A stretch of 64,000 nucleotides of DNA from Fodinicurvata sediminis DSM 21159 (lineage in GTDB: Bacteria > Pseudomonadota > Alphaproteobacteria > Kiloniellales > DSM-21159). The stretch lies in assembly GCF_000420625.1 (NCBI RefSeq), contig NZ_ATVH01000016.1, positions 124,001 to 188,000 of the forward strand, written 5' to 3'. Numbering within the stretch: the stretch's first letter is position 1; every line of letters begins with the position of its first letter. The translations under genes and the position numbers were made by a program. The notes beneath the pieces were generated by a model that saw only the letters and a program-made list of their open reading frames with translations, was not told the origin of the DNA and ran no database searches. This document shows, piece after piece, positions 1,936 through 43,157 of this stretch.

Positions 1936-2228
1936 TGCTTGGCCTCCGTACTTTGCGTTCCGGCTTCGCTTGCCCAGGGGCCAGTGGCCTTCACCTGGTG
2001 AATCCTGTGGGTGGTGGTGTCCCGTTCGATCACCAGGAACTGGCGGCAACCGTGGACATGCTGCCAGTATTCGCTGTGCGGGCCGGCCGGATTGCGGCGC
2101 TGGTAGACCGTGTCAGCCCAGCTGTCGATGTCCTGGGTGTCGGGTGTCGGCCAGCTGATCGTGGCATCCCCTTCATAGGTGAATTCCTCAAGGTGCCGAT
2201 GGCCGCAGAATGGGCAGTTGATGTACAT
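1932..2228 (-). CDS. soxD: Sarcosine oxidase delta subunit
   Basis: Small zinc-binding delta subunit (98 residues) of the sarcosine oxidase heterotetramer, with no catalytic role of its own. The start was set at the ATG giving MYINCPFCGHR, because the CPFCG cysteine pair at the very N-terminus is the family hallmark and residues upstream of it do not belong to the family. A later His-x-His/Cys patch (YWQHVHGCRQF) completes the zinc-ligand pattern. The gene lies 50 bp after soxB and overlaps soxA by four bases, the usual soxB-soxD-soxA order. Confidence 0.93.
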   Translation of the reverse strand: MYINCPFCGHRHLEEFTYEGDATISWPTPDTQDIDSWADTVYQRRNPAGPHSEYWQHVHGCRQFLVIERDTTTHRIHQVKATGPWASEAGTQSTEAKQ

Positions 2229-2278
2229 GAGACGATGTCCTGGTTGGTGAAGCCGTCTTGGGTTCGGGTGCAAGCGCG

Positions 2279-3538
2279 TCAGTGCAGTCGCGGCACCGGC
2301 CCGGCTCCTTTCTCGTCAAGCGTTCGCCCCGTTCGGAAGCGGTCGAGCCGGAAAGCGGCATTGAGTTCGTGTGGCTCGTCACGGGCAATGGTATGGGCAA
2401 AGCACCAACCGGAAGCCGGTGTGGCCTTGAAGCCGCCGTAGCACCAGCCGGCGTTGATGTAGAGGCCTTCCTTCGGCGACTTGTCGATGATGGGGCTGCC
2501 ATCCATGGACATGTCCATGACACCGCCCCAGTGCCGCAGTAGCCGCAGGCGCGATAGGTTGGGGAACAGTGCGACAGCCATTGAGGCGACGTCCTGCACG
2601 ATGGGCAGGTTGCCGCGCTGGGCATAGGAATTGTAGCCGTCCAGGTCGCCACCGAAGACCAGTCCACCCTTGTCGGACTGGGAGATGTAGAGGTGACCGG
2701 CGCCGAAAGTGACCACCGTGTCGATAAGCGGCTTCAGGGGTTCGGAAACGAAAGCCTGAAGAACATGACTTTCGATCGGCAGGCGGTCGAAACCGGCCTT
2801 GGCCAGGACACGGCTGGAATTGCCGGCAACGGCAACGCCAACCTTGCCTGCGCGTACCGGTCCCTTGACGGTATCGACCCCGGCAATCTGATCGCCTTCG
2901 AAGAGGAAGCCCGTCACCTCGCAATTCTCGATGATGTCGACACCAAGGGAATCAGCGCCCCGGGCATAGCCCCAAGCCACCGCATCATGCCGGGCTGAAC
3001 CGCCACGTGCCTGAAGCAGGCCGCCTGCGACGGGAAAGCGTGCCTTGTCCGAGACGTCCATGCCCGGAACCATCCGGGCGACCCCCTCGCGGTCGAGCAG
3101 CTCGGCATCTATGCCGTTGACGCGCATGGAGTTTCCGCGCCGCATGTAGCCTTCCAGTTGAGCGGGGGAATGGGCCAGGTTCAGGACGCCGCGCTGGCTG
3201 AACATGACGTTGTAGTTCAGGTCGCGGCTCATGCCCTCCCAGAGTTTCATGCCCCACTCATAGAAACGGTTGTTCTGCGCCAGCAGGTAGTTGGAGCGCA
3301 CGATGGTGGTATTGCGTCCGACATTGCCGCCCCCGATCCAGCCCTTCTCAATGACCGCGACATTCGTGATGCCGTGTTCCTTCGCCAGGTAATAGGCTGT
3401 GGCCAGGCCGTGGCCACCGCCGCCCACGATAATGACGTCATAGTGCGCCTTGGGCTGCGCGATGGCGCGCCAGGTGCGCGTCCAGCCGCGGTGACCCTTC
3501 AGGGCCTGCCGCGCGAGCGAGAAAGCGGAGAAATGCAT
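2279..3538 (-). CDS. soxB: Sarcosine oxidase beta subunit
   Basis: FAD- and FMN-carrying catalytic subunit that oxidises sarcosine in the cytoplasm, producing hydrogen peroxide, glycine and 5,10-methylene-THF when THF is present. The 419 residues match the usual length. An N-terminal dinucleotide fold (VIIVGGGGHGLATAYYLA, near residue 35) binds FAD. The tail contains the conserved GWCYGGFKATPASGW segment. It is the first gene of soxB-soxD-soxA. The 325 bp upstream, shared with a divergent amino-acid ABC operon, holds the promoter and a palindrome at 3627-3641. Confidence 0.95.
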   Translation of the reverse strand: MHFSAFSLARQALKGHRGWTRTWRAIAQPKAHYDVIIVGGGGHGLATAYYLAKEHGITNVAVIEKGWIGGGNVGRNTTIVRSNYLLAQNNRFYEWGMKLWEGMSRDLNYNVMFSQRGVLNLAHSPAQLEGYMRRGNSMRVNGIDAELLDREGVARMVPGMDVSDKARFPVAGGLLQARGGSARHDAVAWGYARGADSLGVDIIENCEVTGFLFEGDQIAGVDTVKGPVRAGKVGVAVAGNSSRVLAKAGFDRLPIESHVLQAFVSEPLKPLIDTVVTFGAGHLYISQSDKGGLVFGGDLDGYNSYAQRGNLPIVQDVASMAVALFPNLSRLRLLRHWGGVMDMSMDGSPIIDKSPKEGLYINAGWCYGGFKATPASGWCFAHTIARDEPHELNAAFRLDRFRTGRTLDEKGAGPVPRLH

Positions 3539-5527: not shown

Positions 5528-6435
5528 GCGGGTCATCGAACCGGAGACAGCGCCTGCAGGACTCGCTTCGATCCGGAACGGATCTGCCCGTCCTGCTTTC
5601 ACCCGGATCCGCGGTTGCCGGTTCACGTGCCGGCGGGCGCGATGCCCTGGCCCTGCCGCGCGTGAACCTGAAAGCCTGGCACGGCGTTGTGCTGGTGTTG
5701 ATGGTGTTGCTGTCGGCCGGTGTGGCCGAGGCACAGAGCGGCGATGGACGCGAAGGGATCCTCTCGATCCTGATCAAGTGGTCGCCGTTGCTGCTTCAGG
5801 GTTTCGTCTTCAATCTGGTGATCTCAGTCATGTCCATGGCGCTTGGCACAATCAGCGGCGCCTTCCTGGGTCTCATGCAGATATCGCTGCTGCCACAGGT
5901 GCGTTTCGGTAGCTGGTTTGTGACCCAGTTCTTCCGCAACGCGCCCTGGCTGGTGTTGCTGTTCTACGCCATGTTCATGCTGCCTTTCCAGTTCCAGGTG
6001 GCGGGCGTGACCATTCCCTTCCCGGACTGGGTGAAGGCCGTGATCGGACTGAGCCTGCCGGTCATGGCCAACGTATCGGAACTGGTGCGCGGTGCCGTCC
6101 AGTCGATCCCCTCTGGACAGTGGGAAGCCGCAGAATCCCTGGCCTTCACACGCCGCCAGCAGATCTGGCAGATCATCATGCCGCAGTGCGTGAAGCGGAT
6201 GCTGCCGCCCTGGATGAACCTTTACGCAATCCTGACCATGGCGACGGTTCTGGCTTCCATTGTGGGTGTCAACGAGGTGATGACCCTCGCCGACCAGGTG
6301 AAGGCGGCGGAAGGAGGGCGTACGGACCTGTTGGCTCCGCTGTATGGCTATATCCTATTCCTGTTTTTCATCTACTCCTATCCGATTGCGCGCCTGACGG
6401 TACGCCTGGAGCGCAGGTACGCGGTCAAGATCTAG
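5524..6435 (+). CDS. Amino-acid ABC transporter permease with extended N-terminus
   Basis: Second membrane subunit, 303 residues. The permease core begins near residue 80 and carries [14 protein letters not shown] and the [12 protein letters not shown] coupling loop. The first 75 residues are an addition: a polar stretch followed by a hydrophobic segment ([17 protein letters not shown]) that looks like an extra transmembrane helix or a signal-like sequence. Such N-terminal additions occur in some GltK/AapM-like permeases. The start codon overlaps the previous stop (ATGA), so the long form is probably the real product. Confidence 0.88.
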
Positions 6436-31177: not shown

Positions 31178-31639
31178 TCAGGCCAGTTTGCCAAGCAGGC
31201 GGATGAACGCATCCTGTTCTTCCTTCTGTAAGGGGGACAGGACTTCGTGATTCACGCGAGAGGCGGCCTCGATCAGGCTTTCTGACAGTTCTCGGCCGCT
31301 ACCTGTCAGTTCCAGAACCATCCGCCGCCGATCCAGAGGATCGGGTTTGCGATCTATGAAGCCCCGGGCTGCGAGGCGCTGGACCACCCCCTGTATGGTG
31401 GCGGGATCCATGGCCGTTTCACGGCCAAGCTGGTTCTGGGACAGCCGCTGTTTCTCGCGCAGCCGCGTCAGTGCAAAGTACTGCGCGGGCGTCAACTCGT
31501 ATTGGGCCAGCTGCCCTTGGAAAAGCGAAGAGGCGCGCTGATGGGCGCGACGTAGAAGATGTGCAATCTGTTCGTCGAGCTGGAAGCCGTTCCCTTCAGC
31601 GCAAGGGGAACGGGATCTGTCTGTCATGACTTCGGGCAT
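31178..31639 (-). CDS. MarR-family transcriptional regulator
   Basis: A 153-residue winged-helix regulator. The MarR core is clear: LTPAQYFALTRLREKQRLSQNQLGRE, the recognition helix DPATIQGVVQRLAARG, and the wing DRRRMVLELTGSG. It is divergent from the glutamine amidotransferase operon (260 bp gap), which it may control, and convergent with coq9. Confidence 0.92.
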   Translation of the reverse strand: MPEVMTDRSRSPCAEGNGFQLDEQIAHLLRRAHQRASSLFQGQLAQYELTPAQYFALTRLREKQRLSQNQLGRETAMDPATIQGVVQRLAARGFIDRKPDPLDRRRMVLELTGSGRELSESLIEAASRVNHEVLSPLQKEEQDAFIRLLGKLA

Positions 31640-31898: not shown

Positions 31899-32621
31899 AT
31901 GAAGCCAAAAGTACTACAGATCAGACATATGCCGGGCGAGCGCAACGATCGGATCAGCGCCGATCTGCTGCGCCGCGGCTTCGAGCTGGATACGCGCTGG
32001 ATTGCCGAGGGCCATGAACTGCCCAAGGAGACAGAGCCCTATGCGGCCACTGTGATCTATGGCGGTGCGCAGATGGTCGATCAGGTCAATGAACTGGATT
32101 ATCTGGGCCGGGAAATCGATTGGATTCTGCGCTGGATGAAGACAGACAAGCCCATGCTGGGAATCTGTCTGGGGGCCCAGATGATTGCCCATGCTCTGGG
32201 GGGCAGGGTTGGACCGCATGCGGAGGAGAAGGCGGAGATCGGCTTTGTCCCGATCGAACCCACGGAAGCGGGACAAGATCTGATGCCCGAGGAGATGATG
32301 GTCTTCCACTGGCACCTCCAAGGCTTCGAGACACCACCGGGCAGTGAACAGCTGGCACGTGGCCCTGTGTTCGAGCATCAGGCCTTTCGCCATGGAGAAT
32401 CTGTCTATGGCTTGCAGTTTCACCCCGAGGTGACGCGCGACATTCAGGCCCAGTGGCTCGAGGCCGGCGCGCACATGCTGGAAATACCGGGGGCCCAGTC
32501 ACGCGAGGCACAGCTGGCTGCCACGGAACGCCACCTGGATCCGTTGGGGGAATGGCTGTGCGGGTTCCTGGATGTTTGGACCGGCCATCAGGCAGTTAAA
32601 CCAGCGCGCCAGGTTTCATGA
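31899..32621 (+). CDS. Class I glutamine amidotransferase-like protein
   Basis: A 240-residue cytoplasmic protein with a GuaA/GATase1 fold. The nucleophile elbow is GICLGAQ, and the partner histidine and glutamate lie in QFHPEV, so the triad looks intact and hydrolysis of an amide or gamma-glutamyl bond is plausible. The start was placed at the ATG giving MKPKVLQIRHMPGE. It overlaps the next gene, a racemase homologue without catalytic cysteines, by four bases; a linked function is likely but unknown. Confidence 0.88.
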   Translation: MKPKVLQIRHMPGERNDRISADLLRRGFELDTRWIAEGHELPKETEPYAATVIYGGAQMVDQVNELDYLGREIDWILRWMKTDKPMLGICLGAQMIAHALGGRVGPHAEEKAEIGFVPIEPTEAGQDLMPEEMMVFHWHLQGFETPPGSEQLARGPVFEHQAFRHGESVYGLQFHPEVTRDIQAQWLEAGAHMLEIPGAQSREAQLAATERHLDPLGEWLCGFLDVWTGHQAVKPARQVS

Positions 32622-33493
32622 GGCAGCCCATGCCGTCGTTACGCCTTTTGCTTTTGGATTCCGGCGTCGGCGGCCTCTCTGTCCTGAAGGAGCTAAACAA
32701 GGCACTTCCCCAGGCTGAGGTCATCTATATGGCCGATACGGCCGCTTTTCCGCACAGCGACCAGAACGAGGCTACGCTGGCGGATCGAATGAAAGCCTTG
32801 ATCGGTGGCTTCGCTGAAACCGGGCAACCCGACATGGTGGTCGTGACGGGAAGCACCGCCAGCAGTCTGGTGCTGGGAAGCCTGCAGGACCATTTTCCGT
32901 TTCCTTTGATCGGATGCCGCCCGGCTCTTGAGAGCGGCATCGAAATGACCGGTCGTTCGTGCGTCGGGCTGTTGGAAACAGAGGCCACGCTTGGACTACG
33001 AGCCCGCCGTGCGTGGATGGATCGGGTTGCGGCAAGCTGCAAGGTGGTACGTGTGGGGGCAAGGCATCTGGCCGCACTGGCCGAGCGCCGTTTTCGCGGT
33101 CTGCCCGTTGATCAGGCTGTCCTGGCCCAGGAAACCGGTGGGCTCTTTCTTGGAGAAGAGTCGCCGACTCCCGATACCGTGGTCCTGGGCTCTTCGCATT
33201 ACTGGTTCCTTCTCGAGGAACTGCGCCGTCTGGGGCCACCGGGAACCCTGTGGCTGGAACCCGGTCTTGAACTGGCGCAGCGTGTTGTGGCGCAAGCCGG
33301 AACCATTGCGCTGCCGGAAAGGCGGCCGCCACTGAATGGTGGCAATCTGGCGGTCTTCTCACGGCTGTCGCCGCAGGATCGACGCAGCGTGGCGCGTGGT
33401 TGCGCGGCATTCGGACTGGAGCGTGTGTTCAGCCTAGACCCCCTGTCCAAAGACGGGCGCGCGCGGTTATCGGGCCTGCTATCGCAGGCGTAA
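32618..33493 (+). CDS. Glutamate racemase homologue lacking both catalytic cysteines
   Basis: A 291-residue MurI/Asp-Glu racemase fold protein. It begins with the family motif DSGVGGLSVLKEL and has YMADTAAFP, matching the glutamate-racemase opening. The two catalytic cysteines are missing: the ACNTAS site reads TGSTAS (Gly78) and the LGCTHY site reads LGSSHY (Ser192). It therefore cannot be a normal cysteine-dependent racemase. It is the second gene of a pair with a glutamine amidotransferase. A regulatory, sugar-binding or non-racemase role is possible; nothing in the sequence decides. Confidence 0.85.
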   Translation: MRQPMPSLRLLLLDSGVGGLSVLKELNKALPQAEVIYMADTAAFPHSDQNEATLADRMKALIGGFAETGQPDMVVVTGSTASSLVLGSLQDHFPFPLIGCRPALESGIEMTGRSCVGLLETEATLGLRARRAWMDRVAASCKVVRVGARHLAALAERRFRGLPVDQAVLAQETGGLFLGEESPTPDTVVLGSSHYWFLLEELRRLGPPGTLWLEPGLELAQRVVAQAGTIALPERRPPLNGGNLAVFSRLSPQDRRSVARGCAAFGLERVFSLDPLSKDGRARLSGLLSQA

Positions 33494-33551: not shown

Positions 33552-34496
33552 GTGAGTAACTGGCGCGTGATCACTGTTCTGCCCTTCGTTCGTTCCTTTC
33601 ACAGCGTTTGGCTTGTAACTGGACTTCTGTTGGCCCTGACAGCCTGTGCCGGGCCGAAACCGTCCCCAGAGCCGGCCCCTGAACGCTATCCACCGATCAG
33701 CTATCCCTATCAGGCCAAGGAACGCATTCTTTCGATTGCTTATCGTGAGTGGCTGGAGTTCCGGCGTCCGGTGCTGGATCAGACCGGGACAGAGGAACGG
33801 CAATTGCGTAAGGGCTACGAGGAGGGTGATCCCGAGGTCTTCCCACACCTTCAGGCCTATTGGAATGCGGTGCGCGCGGACTATGCAGGCTACGTCCGAC
33901 AGCAGCGGGACCGCCACCGTGCCGGGGTGCGAACGGGTTTGTGGCAGGGTGAACCCTGGTCCGCCGCCTTCATTTCCTATGTCATGCGTTCGGCCGGGAT
34001 CGACCTGGATGACTTTGAATGGGACGCAGGCCATCGCAACTACGTGGATGCTGCCATTCGCAGTGAACGACGCTACGGTCGGGACAGCGTGTTCCTGCCC
34101 CATGAAATCACCGATTACGCTCCGCGCGTAGGAGACCTTGTCTGTTCGGATCGCAGCCTGCCGGCGGAGCAGCGCATACGCAGCCTGGCTGAACGCGAGG
34201 CCGAGTTGGGCGGATCGCGTGGTATGCATTGCGATATCGTCGTGCAGACAGAACCTGGCAGGATTGCCGTGATCGGGGGAAATGTGCGCGATGCGGTCAC
34301 ACTGTCCTACCTACCCGTGAACGCCCGGGGGCAGCTTATCCCCTGGCAACCGGAGGATGGGCCGGAAATCCGGACCTTCTTCACTGTCCTGCAGACCAAC
34401 ATTCCCGATCCGCCAGGCGGCTTTCCCGTGCCGCGTGGCTTGCGCGAGGCCGAAAGGCTGTTACGCGATCAAGAAGGGAATACGGCATCTGGCTGA
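33552..34496 (+). CDS. DUF2272 lipoprotein
   Basis: A 314-residue secreted lipoprotein. The lipobox is LTAC at about residue 32, after a hydrophobic stretch. The mature part matches DUF2272: WQGEPWSAAFISYVMRSAGI, GDLVCSDRS, and the CDIVV/GGNVRDAV segments, which resemble the NlpC/P60-CHAP fold with Cys and His placed for catalysis. A peptidoglycan hydrolase role is plausible by fold. The start is a GTG at 33552. Confidence 0.84.
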   Translation: MSNWRVITVLPFVRSFHSVWLVTGLLLALTACAGPKPSPEPAPERYPPISYPYQAKERILSIAYREWLEFRRPVLDQTGTEERQLRKGYEEGDPEVFPHLQAYWNAVRADYAGYVRQQRDRHRAGVRTGLWQGEPWSAAFISYVMRSAGIDLDDFEWDAGHRNYVDAAIRSERRYGRDSVFLPHEITDYAPRVGDLVCSDRSLPAEQRIRSLAEREAELGGSRGMHCDIVVQTEPGRIAVIGGNVRDAVTLSYLPVNARGQLIPWQPEDGPEIRTFFTVLQTNIPDPPGGFPVPRGLREAERLLRDQEGNTASG

Positions 34497-39732: not shown

Positions 39733-39978
39733 GCAGCGAAGCTCCTGGATAAAGTTTTCTGATAGCCGTTAGTTGGCATGCACTTGCTGCCGGACAATAC
39801 GGGAAAGGTGTTAAGAGAGCCTTTATGGCTCAGGCATGATTCGGCCAGCTTAGCATCGCTCCTCCGCTGCACGCTCTGCTCACGGCATTGCCACAAAGAC
39901 TTGCGATTGTCTGCGGTCCGAGGACGCGGTAAGCCTGTGCTATCTGCGATACCGGAGTTGCACGACAGGAATGTGGAG

Positions 39979-41334
39979 ATGAGCGGGGGAGCTACCCTGA
40001 ATGTGGTGATACTGGCGGCCGGTCAGGGAACGCGCATGCGTTCTGCCAAGCCCAAGGTGCTGCACGAAGTTGCGGGCCTGGCGATGGTGCAGCATGTCCT
40101 GAACGCGGCCGAGGCACTTGAGCCCAGTCGCGTTGTGGTGGTGGTGGGCCCTGACATGCCGCAGCTTGCCGAGGCCGTTGCACCCTGGCCTGTCGCCGTG
40201 CAGCAGCAGCGCTTGGGCACCGCGGATGCCGTTCGCGCGGCGGCACCGCTTCTTGAGGGTGTGGACGAGACGGGGGACCTTCTGATTCTCTATGGGGACG
40301 GGCCCTTGATTACGGCCGAAACGCTTCGGGCGCTCCAGGAGCAGAAGAAGTCAAGCGGGGCCGATCTTGTCTGGCTGGGCTTCAAGCCTCCCGATCCGAC
40401 GGGCTATGGCCGCCTGTTGCTGGCTGAGGACGGGACGCTTGAAGGTATCGTCGAGGAAAAGGATGCCACGGCCGAACAGAAGCGCATCAGCTCGTGTTGG
40501 GCCGGATACCTGCTGGGCAATGCCCGGGTCATGCTCGATCTGCTCGAGGCGGTCGACAACGACAATGCCAAGAGGGAATACTATCTGACAGATCTCGTGC
40601 GGCTTGGGCGGGCGACAGGTAAGGTTTCCCGCATCAGTGAATGTGGGGTGGATGAGGTTACCGGCGTCAATTCCCGCAGCGAACTGGCCCAGGCCGAACG
40701 ACTGATGCAGGAGCGCCTGCGCCGCCGGGCTATGGAGCAGGGCGTGACCCTCATCGATCCGGATACGGTCTGGCTGTCGCATGATACCCAGCTTGCTGCC
40801 GATGTGGTTATCCATCCCAACGTCGTTTTCGGCCCTGGGGTCCGTGTGGCCGAGGGGGCCGAGATCCTGAGTTTCTCTCATCTGGAAGGCGCGAAAGTTG
40901 CCAAGGACGCGCGTATCGGCCCCTATGCGCGGTTGCGCCCCGGCAGTCACATCGGTGAAAAGGCGCGCGTGGGCAACTTCGTGGAGATCAAGGCCTCTCG
41001 GCTAGAGGCCGGGGCCAAGGCCAATCACCTGAGCTATATTGGTGATGCCACAGTCGGTGAAGGCGCGAACATCGGGGCCGGTACCATTACCTGCAACTAC
41101 GATGGCTATGGCAAGCATCACAGCGATATCGGGGCCGGTGCTTTCATCGGCTCGAACACGGCTCTGGTCGCGCCCGTGCGTATCGGGGCGAATGCAATCG
41201 TGGGCGCCGGCTCGACCATAACGAGGGATGTTCCCGATGACGCCCTTGGCCTTACACGTGCAGAACAGTCAGTGCGCCCCGATGCAGCCGCCCGCTTTCG
41301 GGCGCAGCGCAAGAAAAGCAAGGAGAAATCCTGA
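39979..41334 (+). CDS. glmU: Bifunctional GlmU, UDP-GlcNAc synthesis
   Basis: A 451-residue two-domain enzyme making UDP-N-acetylglucosamine for peptidoglycan and LPS. The uridyltransferase half starts VVILAAGQGTRMRSAKPKVL and has GYGRLLL. The acetyltransferase half is a left-handed beta helix with hexapeptide repeats, ending GANAIVGAGSTITRDVPDDAL. The start at 39979 (MSGGATLN) gives the standard N-terminus. It shares one base with the glmS start, so both are co-expressed. Confidence 0.96.
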   Translation: MSGGATLNVVILAAGQGTRMRSAKPKVLHEVAGLAMVQHVLNAAEALEPSRVVVVVGPDMPQLAEAVAPWPVAVQQQRLGTADAVRAAAPLLEGVDETGDLLILYGDGPLITAETLRALQEQKKSSGADLVWLGFKPPDPTGYGRLLLAEDGTLEGIVEEKDATAEQKRISSCWAGYLLGNARVMLDLLEAVDNDNAKREYYLTDLVRLGRATGKVSRISECGVDEVTGVNSRSELAQAERLMQERLRRRAMEQGVTLIDPDTVWLSHDTQLAADVVIHPNVVFGPGVRVAEGAEILSFSHLEGAKVAKDARIGPYARLRPGSHIGEKARVGNFVEIKASRLEAGAKANHLSYIGDATVGEGANIGAGTITCNYDGYGKHHSDIGAGAFIGSNTALVAPVRIGANAIVGAGSTITRDVPDDALGLTRAEQSVRPDAAARFRAQRKKSKEKS

Positions 41335-43157
41335 TGTGCGGTATTATTGGTATCCTGGGCCAGAAAGCGGTCACGCCTCTTCTTGTGGATGGCCTTAAGC
41401 GCTTGGAGTACCGCGGCTATGATTCGGCCGGCATCGCCACGCTGCGCAACGGCCAGATCGACCGCAGACGGGCCGAGGGGAAGATCGTCAACCTTGAAGC
41501 CGTGATCGAGAGAGAGCCGCTGGAGGGGACCGTGGGCATCGGGCATACTCGCTGGGCCACCCATGGACGTCCCACCGAGGTGAACGCCCACCCCCATGCC
41601 AACAGTGAAGTGGCCGTGGTACACAACGGCATCATCGAGAACTTCCGCGCGCTCAGGAAGGAATTGGAGGCGGCCGGCCACAGCTTCGAAACCGAAACCG
41701 ATACCGAAGTGATCGTCCATCTGATCACGGATTACCTGAGAAGCCAGAAAAGCCCCGAGGAAGCCGTGGCAGCAACCCTGAAACGGCTGCATGGCGCCTT
41801 CGCGGTGGCCATCGTCTTCGCGGGCCGGCACGACCTGATGATCGGGGCCCGGCGCGGCAGCCCCCTGGCGTTGGGCTATGGCAATGGCGAGCTCTACCTG
41901 GGCTCGGATTCCCTGGCGCTGGCGCCGCTGACGGACCAGATCTGCTTCCTGGAGGAAGGGGACTGGGTCGTCCTGAAAGGCGGGGAGGCCCGCATCTTCG
42001 ACCAGGACGATTCCCCGGTTGAGCGCCCTGTGACACGCACGGTCATGTCCGGCGCCATGATCGGTAAGGGCTCGTACCGGCACTTCATGCAGAAGGAAAT
42101 CTTCGAGCAGCCGGTTGTCATAGGGGACACGCTGCAAAGCTATGTGGATCCCTTGAGTCGCCGGGTCACCCTGCCGGAGTTGCCCTTTGACTTTGCCCGG
42201 ATTCCCCGCCTGACGGCCAGTGCCTGCGGAACCGCATTCTATGCGGGCATGGTCGGCAGGTACTGGTTCGAACAGGTCGCGCGCCTGCCCATGGATATCG
42301 ATATTGCAAGCGAGTTCCGTTATCGCGAGGCGCCGCTGCCCGAGAACGGCGCCGCACTTTTCATCTCCCAGTCAGGCGAGACCATCGATACCCTCTCGGC
42401 CCTGCGCTACACGCGCACCCAGAAGCAGCATATCCTGTCCATCGTCAATCAGCAGGAAAGTGCAATTGCACGGGAATCCGACGCGGTCATGAAGACCCTG
42501 GCCGGACCCGAGATCGGGGTGGCCTCGACCAAGGCCTTTACCACGCAGCTTGTGGTCCTGGCCTGCCTGGCCCTGGCCGCCGGGCGCGCGCGGGGCTGCC
42601 TGTCGGCCGAGGCGGAGGCCGAGTTGACCTCGGCGCTCATCGAGGTGCCGGCGCAGGCTTCCTATTTCCTGGAACGTGAAGCCCAGCTGATCGACATTGC
42701 GAACGAGATGGCCGAGGCCAGCGATATTCTCTATATGGGCCGCGGCAGCATGTATCCTCTGGCGCTCGAAGGAGCGCTGAAGTTCAAGGAGATCAGTTAC
42801 CTGCATGCCGAGGGCTATGCTGCCGGCGAATTGAAGCACGGGGCCATGGCGCTGATCGACGAGCATGTCCCCATCGTGGTCTGTGCGTCGAGCGGACCCC
42901 TGTTCGACAAAACGGCCGGCAACATCCAGGAGGTGATTGCCCGCGGCGGGCGCGTGGTTCTGATTTCTGACGAGCAGGGCATCGACGCCATCGGCGAAGG
43001 CGTGACCCATGCGGTTCAGGTGCCGGAGGTGTCGCCCTTCGTGGCCCCGATCCTCTATGCCCTGCCGCTGCAGCTGCTGGCCTATCACACGGCCGTCATC
43101 AAGGGCACGGACGTGGACCAGCCGCGTAACCTGGCCAAGAGTGTGACGGTGGAATGA
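41334..43157 (+). CDS. glmS: Glucosamine-6-phosphate synthase
   Basis: Makes glucosamine 6-phosphate from fructose 6-phosphate and glutamine; 607 residues. The N-terminal nucleophile begins directly at CGIIGI after the initiator Met, followed by the GATase motif HTRWATHG. Two SIS sugar-isomerase domains follow (SACGTAFYAG, SQSGETIDTL and GRGSMYPLALEGALKFKE), and the C-terminus is KSVTVE. No glmS ribozyme is present, as expected outside Gram-positives. Confidence 0.97.
   Translation: MCGIIGILGQKAVTPLLVDGLKRLEYRGYDSAGIATLRNGQIDRRRAEGKIVNLEAVIEREPLEGTVGIGHTRWATHGRPTEVNAHPHANSEVAVVHNGIIENFRALRKELEAAGHSFETETDTEVIVHLITDYLRSQKSPEEAVAATLKRLHGAFAVAIVFAGRHDLMIGARRGSPLALGYGNGELYLGSDSLALAPLTDQICFLEEGDWVVLKGGEARIFDQDDSPVERPVTRTVMSGAMIGKGSYRHFMQKEIFEQPVVIGDTLQSYVDPLSRRVTLPELPFDFARIPRLTASACGTAFYAGMVGRYWFEQVARLPMDIDIASEFRYREAPLPENGAALFISQSGETIDTLSALRYTRTQKQHILSIVNQQESAIARESDAVMKTLAGPEIGVASTKAFTTQLVVLACLALAAGRARGCLSAEAEAELTSALIEVPAQASYFLEREAQLIDIANEMAEASDILYMGRGSMYPLALEGALKFKEISYLHAEGYAAGELKHGAMALIDEHVPIVVCASSGPLFDKTAGNIQEVIARGGRVVLISDEQGIDAIGEGVTHAVQVPEVSPFVAPILYALPLQLLAYHTAVIKGTDVDQPRNLAKSVTVE

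Follow-up and report, generated by a model that had tools for sequence, protein, structure and literature searches.

A MurI-like protein of Fodinicurvata without either catalytic cysteine: a possible pseudo-racemase seen in a single genus

Both catalytic cysteines of the glutamate racemase MurI are replaced in a full-length MurI-like protein encoded by Fodinicurvata sediminis, and comparison of one species pair indicates that the gene has been under purifying selection since they were lost. As far as seen, this putative pseudo-racemase is restricted to one genus, and the best reading of the evidence, to which we would give an even chance, is that it has a non-catalytic or moonlighting role. 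A descendant of MurI that appears to have given up the cysteine mechanism and yet is selected represents a natural case of separation of function, and lets one ask what MurI does besides providing D-glutamate, the question of gyrase included.

The MurI-like gene and its relatives

The window, by which we mean the whole stretch of 64,000 nucleotides analysed here, is part of contig C16 of the 3.69 Mb genome of F. sediminis DSM 21159. The features of concern are the following.

31178..31639, minus strand: MarR-family regulator, divergent from the GATase (profile match)
31899..32621, plus strand: class-I glutamine amidotransferase (GATase), with a four-base overlap with the MurI-like gene (PRK06490; start ATG at 31899 by inspection)
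32618..33493, plus strand: MurI-like protein P0001, 291 aa, without both catalytic cysteines (open reading frame and homology)
32849..32851, plus strand: codon 78 (Gly), first catalytic cysteine site, VVTGSTAS for VVACNTAS (alignment to MurI)
33191..33193, plus strand: codon 192 (Ser), second catalytic cysteine site, LGSSHYW for LGCTHYP (alignment to MurI)
33552..34496, plus strand: DUF2272 protein with a lipoprotein-like start, the latter by inspection (profile match)

The MurI-like frame opens with ATG and has zero internal stops. Both homology and fold place its product with MurI: among solved structures the best match is E. coli MurI (2jfn; E 2.8e-33, 118.7 bits, phmmer against PDB chains), and MurI structures match its AlphaFold2 model, with 2jfn again at the top at a TM-score of 0.66 to a model of low confidence (mean pLDDT 64.3, pTM 0.65, six-row alignment). 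On the NCBIfam models for glutamate racemase it falls short of both cut-offs, with 136 bits against 408 for PRK00865 and 118.3 bits against 146.65 for TIGR00067, the TIGR00067 cut-off being a weak test that is exceeded in only 15 of 59 genomes of the order, and Pfam PF01177 (Asp/Glu racemase superfamily) reaches 19.3 bits against a gathering score of 31. There were zero matches to phage families, the 38 plasmid records with homologues are every one below 60% identity, and the three distant MurI found on viral contigs all possess both cysteines.

In a tree of 84 rows, the Fodinicurvata pair (100*) is nested among the E. coli-type MurI, its stem measuring 2.35 changes per site and its tips 0.12 and 0.21; the closest of the remaining rows stand at a distance of about 3.5, and the fork is drawn open. 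The order contains two MurI types that are very far apart, and both can be found within a single family (G007 as against G002, G005 and G009), a pattern suggestive of replacement or transfer.

Loss of both catalytic cysteines

Upon alignment to 2jfn, VVTGSTAS falls on VVACNTAS and VVLGSSHYW on VVLGCTHFP, which puts Gly78 and Ser192 at the cysteine positions and bears out the preliminary description, in which a full-length MurI homologue with these two replacements was reported. An alignment of 82 comparison MurI, gathered by searching the order, the class and the phylum, shows Cys at the two positions in every one of them, with Asn following the first and Thr following the second, and a motif check of four more outside that alignment found both cysteines in each, such that 86 of 86 inspected proteins keep the pair. 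This sample took at most 30 matches per wide search from longer match lists (64 of 385 class genomes and 154 of 398 phylum genomes); L046, L047 and L049, which repeat L006, L007 and L008, were left out of the counts, and the remaining order loci repeat genomes already counted. Two of the comparison proteins read SCTH at the second motif, and the alignment shows both cysteines to be present in them. The window protein thus has neither the cysteine pair of MurI nor the one catalytic cysteine that single-cysteine relatives retain.

The same two losses are present in Fodinicurvata fenggangensis DSM 21160 (locus L031), where the local gene order is as in the window; because they are common to both species, they would predate the species split. 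A sequencing error at the cysteine codons, named beforehand as grounds for refutation, was considered and discarded as very unlikely because the congener shows the identical pair of losses. None of the papers listed from the literature searched, which covered few of the subscription journals, describes a cysteine-free MurI in its title or at the start of its abstract.

Supply of D-glutamate

A second MurI in the window genome was considered and rejected, no other TIGR00067 match being present there; F. fenggangensis has no other match either. Two other Asp/Glu-racemase-family matches occur in the window genome, and neither matches TIGR00067. At locus L001 (contig C17), the gene at 1462-2199 belongs to the Asp/Glu racemase family and has both cysteines; it overlaps a gene at 2196-3209, which we take to be a PLP-dependent D-cysteine-desulfhydrase-like gene. 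In the order, TIGR00067 finds a match in 40 of 59 genomes and none in 19, and 6 of the 12 family genomes are without one, including four whose completeness is 96% or more. The D-amino-acid transaminase model TIGR01121 has a match in all 12 family genomes (E 8.8e-72 or better) and in 58 of the 59 order genomes, above cut-off in 6; it is a loose marker, as it also matches 12 of 14 control genomes, above cut-off in 1. The transaminase of the window genome scores 402.7 bits with PRK06680 (cut-off 320) and falls just short with TIGR01121 (274.0 bits against 277.45), and the F. fenggangensis match to the latter scores 274.1 bits.

Because MurI matches are patchy and transaminase matches are found throughout, MurI, and racemisation with it, looks dispensable in the family as judged by these profiles. 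The D-amino-acid transaminase reaction yields D-glutamate (PMC8788868; PMC5885031), and from this known reaction we infer that the window species may obtain its D-glutamate by transamination. Given the 19 order genomes without a MurI match and the 58 with a transaminase match, transamination may often be the supply of D-glutamate in this order. That MurI matches come and go here while the transaminase match stays bears on the standing of MurI as a universal drug target.

Selection, and the copy in the congener

The gene was compared between the window and F. fenggangensis by the Nei-Gojobori method, with the two frame segments kept apart and for this one species pair. We observe a dN/dS of 0.143 for residues 1-178 (bootstrap 0.088-0.223) and 0.140 for residues 175-283 (bootstrap 0.069-0.254), values which fall inside the range of 12 neighbouring genes, from 0 (rpsU) to 0.274 (GNAT); substitutions at codon positions 1, 2 and 3 number 47, 20 and 111 over 283 codons. 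With the segments read in their own frames, the congener gene has zero stops in these 283 codons, and a simple neutral simulation gave a mean of 7.8 stops if all of the change is placed in one lineage and 4.2 with half of it, the probability of none then being 0.016. For this species pair, the substitution pattern argues that the gene is under purifying selection since the loss of the cysteines.

The preliminary description had the frame intact with no sign of decay, which is true of the window genome but not of F. fenggangensis, where a frameshift at about residue 178 breaks the gene in two (L031:6001-6875; G001 contig C8, 7972-8837). Nucleotide alignment traces the frameshift to one base next to a short run of G, the coding sequence being otherwise collinear. 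G001, the only other Fodinicurvata genome compared, is identical to L031 over 6 kb, and because the two may be one assembly, a draft-assembly error is possible. Both halves of the frameshifted gene still show purifying selection.

It is because of this frameshift that the main rival of the pseudo-racemase reading is that of a gene on its way out, in which racemisation became redundant, the cysteines were lost and the protein is now disappearing. Such a course is unlikely in our estimation. The frameshift, the absence of a MurI match from half of the family genomes, the transaminase matches in both species and the long stem are all consistent with it, and if the frameshift is real, the function would be dispensable in F. 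fenggangensis, which would count against a pseudo-racemase. However, the losses precede the species split, and because dN/dS has since been about 0.14 in both halves of the gene, with no stops, simple decay does not appear to have followed them; the frameshift itself amounts to one indel in two identical sources.

Conserved residues and the substrate pocket

Among 54 E. coli-type sequences, 47 columns are at least 90% conserved, and the MurI-like protein keeps 29 of these (D14, S15, D40, P45, T80, T121, T124, E156 and H194 among them) and changes 18 (H46, S47, T77, G78, S79, S192, S193, W196 and ten more). The conserved Asn has become Ser, PYG has become PHS, and CTH has become SSH. Seven of the residues kept, D14, S15, D40, T80, T121, E156 and H194, are kept by the F. 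fenggangensis protein as well, while Ser193 is Pro in that species. A redesign specific to the pocket was considered and rejected, as changes are not enriched there (6 of 14 conserved columns as against 12 of 33 elsewhere, Fisher p 0.75, for a set of pocket residues chosen by ourselves), and the derived residues common to both species (14 of 18) are no more than the 80% background. This want of statistical support for a specific redesign likewise counts against the pseudo-racemase reading.

One may nonetheless conceive of a repurposed enzyme, in which Asp14, Asp40, Glu156 and His194 would stand in for the cysteines and carry out, for instance, proton transfer, decarboxylation or hydrolysis with a glutamate-like acid as the substrate. 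The seven residues kept in both species speak for this, and the residues of MurI that take part in proton transfer also include an Asp. One study names S8, T72, E150 and H183 among the proton-transfer residues of MurI (PMC6927343), and superfamily members with fewer cysteines are described in two others (PMC12576825, PMC12661438). Those precedents each keep one cysteine, however, Ser193 and the PYG motif have not been preserved, and the neighbourhood suggests no substrate. No replacement acid/base pair is demonstrable from the sequence of the protein, though several accessory residues are kept. On balance, we regard such repurposing as rather improbable. That the protein, by way of the kept Asp, Glu and His and with no catalytic Cys, converts a glutamate-like acid in some other reaction we regard as doubtful indeed; we know of no cysteine-free catalyst in the Asp/Glu racemase superfamily, none appearing among the papers listed, and the MurI-like enzyme would be the first. 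Because one-cysteine relatives exist, new chemistry in this protein is possible but unsupported.

The GATase and other neighbours

The best NCBIfam model on the GATase, PRK06490, scores 229.2 bits, below its cut-off of 339. Its membership of the family is evident from PF00117 (63.8 bits against 22.8) and from the motifs GICLGAQ and FHPEV, which we take to be the class-I nucleophile and His-Glu motifs. The four-base overlap described earlier is confirmed: the ATG of the MurI-like gene lies at 32618-32620 and the TGA of the GATase at 32619-32621, and in F. fenggangensis the MurI-like gene begins with GTG at 6001 and the GATase ends at 6004. In the window, the row runs from the GATase to the MurI-like gene and then to the DUF2272 gene, whose product presumably resembles wall hydrolases of the NlpC/CHAP type; a DUF2272 protein with a lipoprotein-like start thus adjoins a relative of a cell-wall enzyme. 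Some 6 kb further downstream than the MurI-like gene, at 39778-43157, lie what we take to be glmU and glmS, genes for the UDP-GlcNAc precursor.

In the flanks of the GATase in 18 relatives (1.5 to 7 kb on each side), there is no match to the MurI-like protein. In one of these, G006, DUF2272 comes straight after the GATase, with fhs and ORF36383 further on and no intervening MurI; G010, which belongs to that genus too, has a DUF2272 match starting about 1.4 kb past its GATase, and the other 16 of the 18 have no DUF2272 match within these flanks. Several family members have MarR no more than a few kb from the GATase, and in G009 and G005 the genes for MarR, GATase, fhs and ORF36383 lie close together. 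A GATase match occurs in 53 of the 59 order genomes, and outside the two Fodinicurvata genomes none of the 59 has a GATase adjoining a MurI match (contig places judged by eye and limited by contig ends), the next closest pair being about 52 kb apart, in G053; nor, by eye, is a GATase found within 1.5 kb of the two-cysteine MurI of G002, G005 or G009. Because relatives keep the GATase without an adjoining MurI, the overlap would be a genus-level arrangement and weak evidence for shared chemistry, and the GATase appears to be an older neighbour of the gene and at most a putative partner.

It is therefore very unlikely that the MurI-like protein is a partner or sensor of the adjacent GATase, as in the control of glutamine hydrolysis by glutamate; the overlap is indeed present in both species, but the distribution given above, and the far slower evolution of the GATase (dN/dS 0.043, with 0.109 for DUF2272, against 0.14), tell against it. 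The functional non-racemase tied to glutamine that had been proposed is hence retained in its first part, a cysteine-free protein under selection, and not in its link to glutamine chemistry, and the close homologues that might lack the cysteines and keep the GATase neighbour are represented by the congener, which does both, but not by the relatives, in which the GATase has no MurI beside it.

A role without racemisation

Racemisation by the known mechanism would be implausible without the two proton-transfer cysteines, and it is scarcely credible that the protein continues to racemise glutamate with serine or some other group in their place. Its fold persists, as do several accessory residues, but besides losing both cysteines it has altered the conserved Asn, the second Thr and the Tyr-Gly of PYG.

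For the pseudo-racemase, we would postulate the following course. Some ancestor of Fodinicurvata would have been able to make D-glutamate through its D-amino-acid transaminase, and an ordinary E. coli-type MurI may have come to sit there between the GATase and DUF2272. Freed from this duty, MurI would have lost the two cysteines and part of its substrate pocket, losses that the sequence itself displays, while the fold and several pocket residues were kept and came under the purifying selection seen in the one species pair. Most likely, the protein would now work through the binding of a ligand or of a partner protein, and the most concrete known precedent is the restraint of gyrase by some MurI.

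Comparison with known systems

The nearest known system is E. coli-type MurI (2jfn; PRK00865, TIGR00067), with which the MurI-like protein has in common near full-length similarity, the DSGVGGLSV start, the fold and the Asp, Ser, Thr, Glu and His of the pocket, and from which it differs in the two cysteines, the three motif changes and its low TIGR00067 score. In the same superfamily, arylmalonate decarboxylase has Gly74 with Cys188 (PMC12576825) and EcL-DER has Thr83 with Cys197 (PMC12661438). Each has a non-cysteine residue at one catalytic site, which in arylmalonate decarboxylase is a Gly at the first site as in the MurI-like protein, but each retains one cysteine where the MurI-like protein has none.

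The MurD2/MurL pathway is another bacterial route without MurI (PMC8788868). The window genome differs in that it has a D-amino-acid transaminase and in that one of its six MurD matches lies above the MurD cut-off; inspection by eye of the dcw stretches listed for it found no obvious extra gene for MurL.

As to gyrase, the title of a primary paper states that inhibition by MurI is uncoupled from racemisation. In a review, the MurI of E. coli, B. subtilis and mycobacteria are described as inhibiting gyrase in a manner not coupled to racemisation, the E. coli protein doing so in the presence of UDP-MurNAc-L-Ala (PMC10886550). These gyrase-inhibiting proteins are active racemases, and for the MurI-like protein they serve as a precedent but not as evidence.
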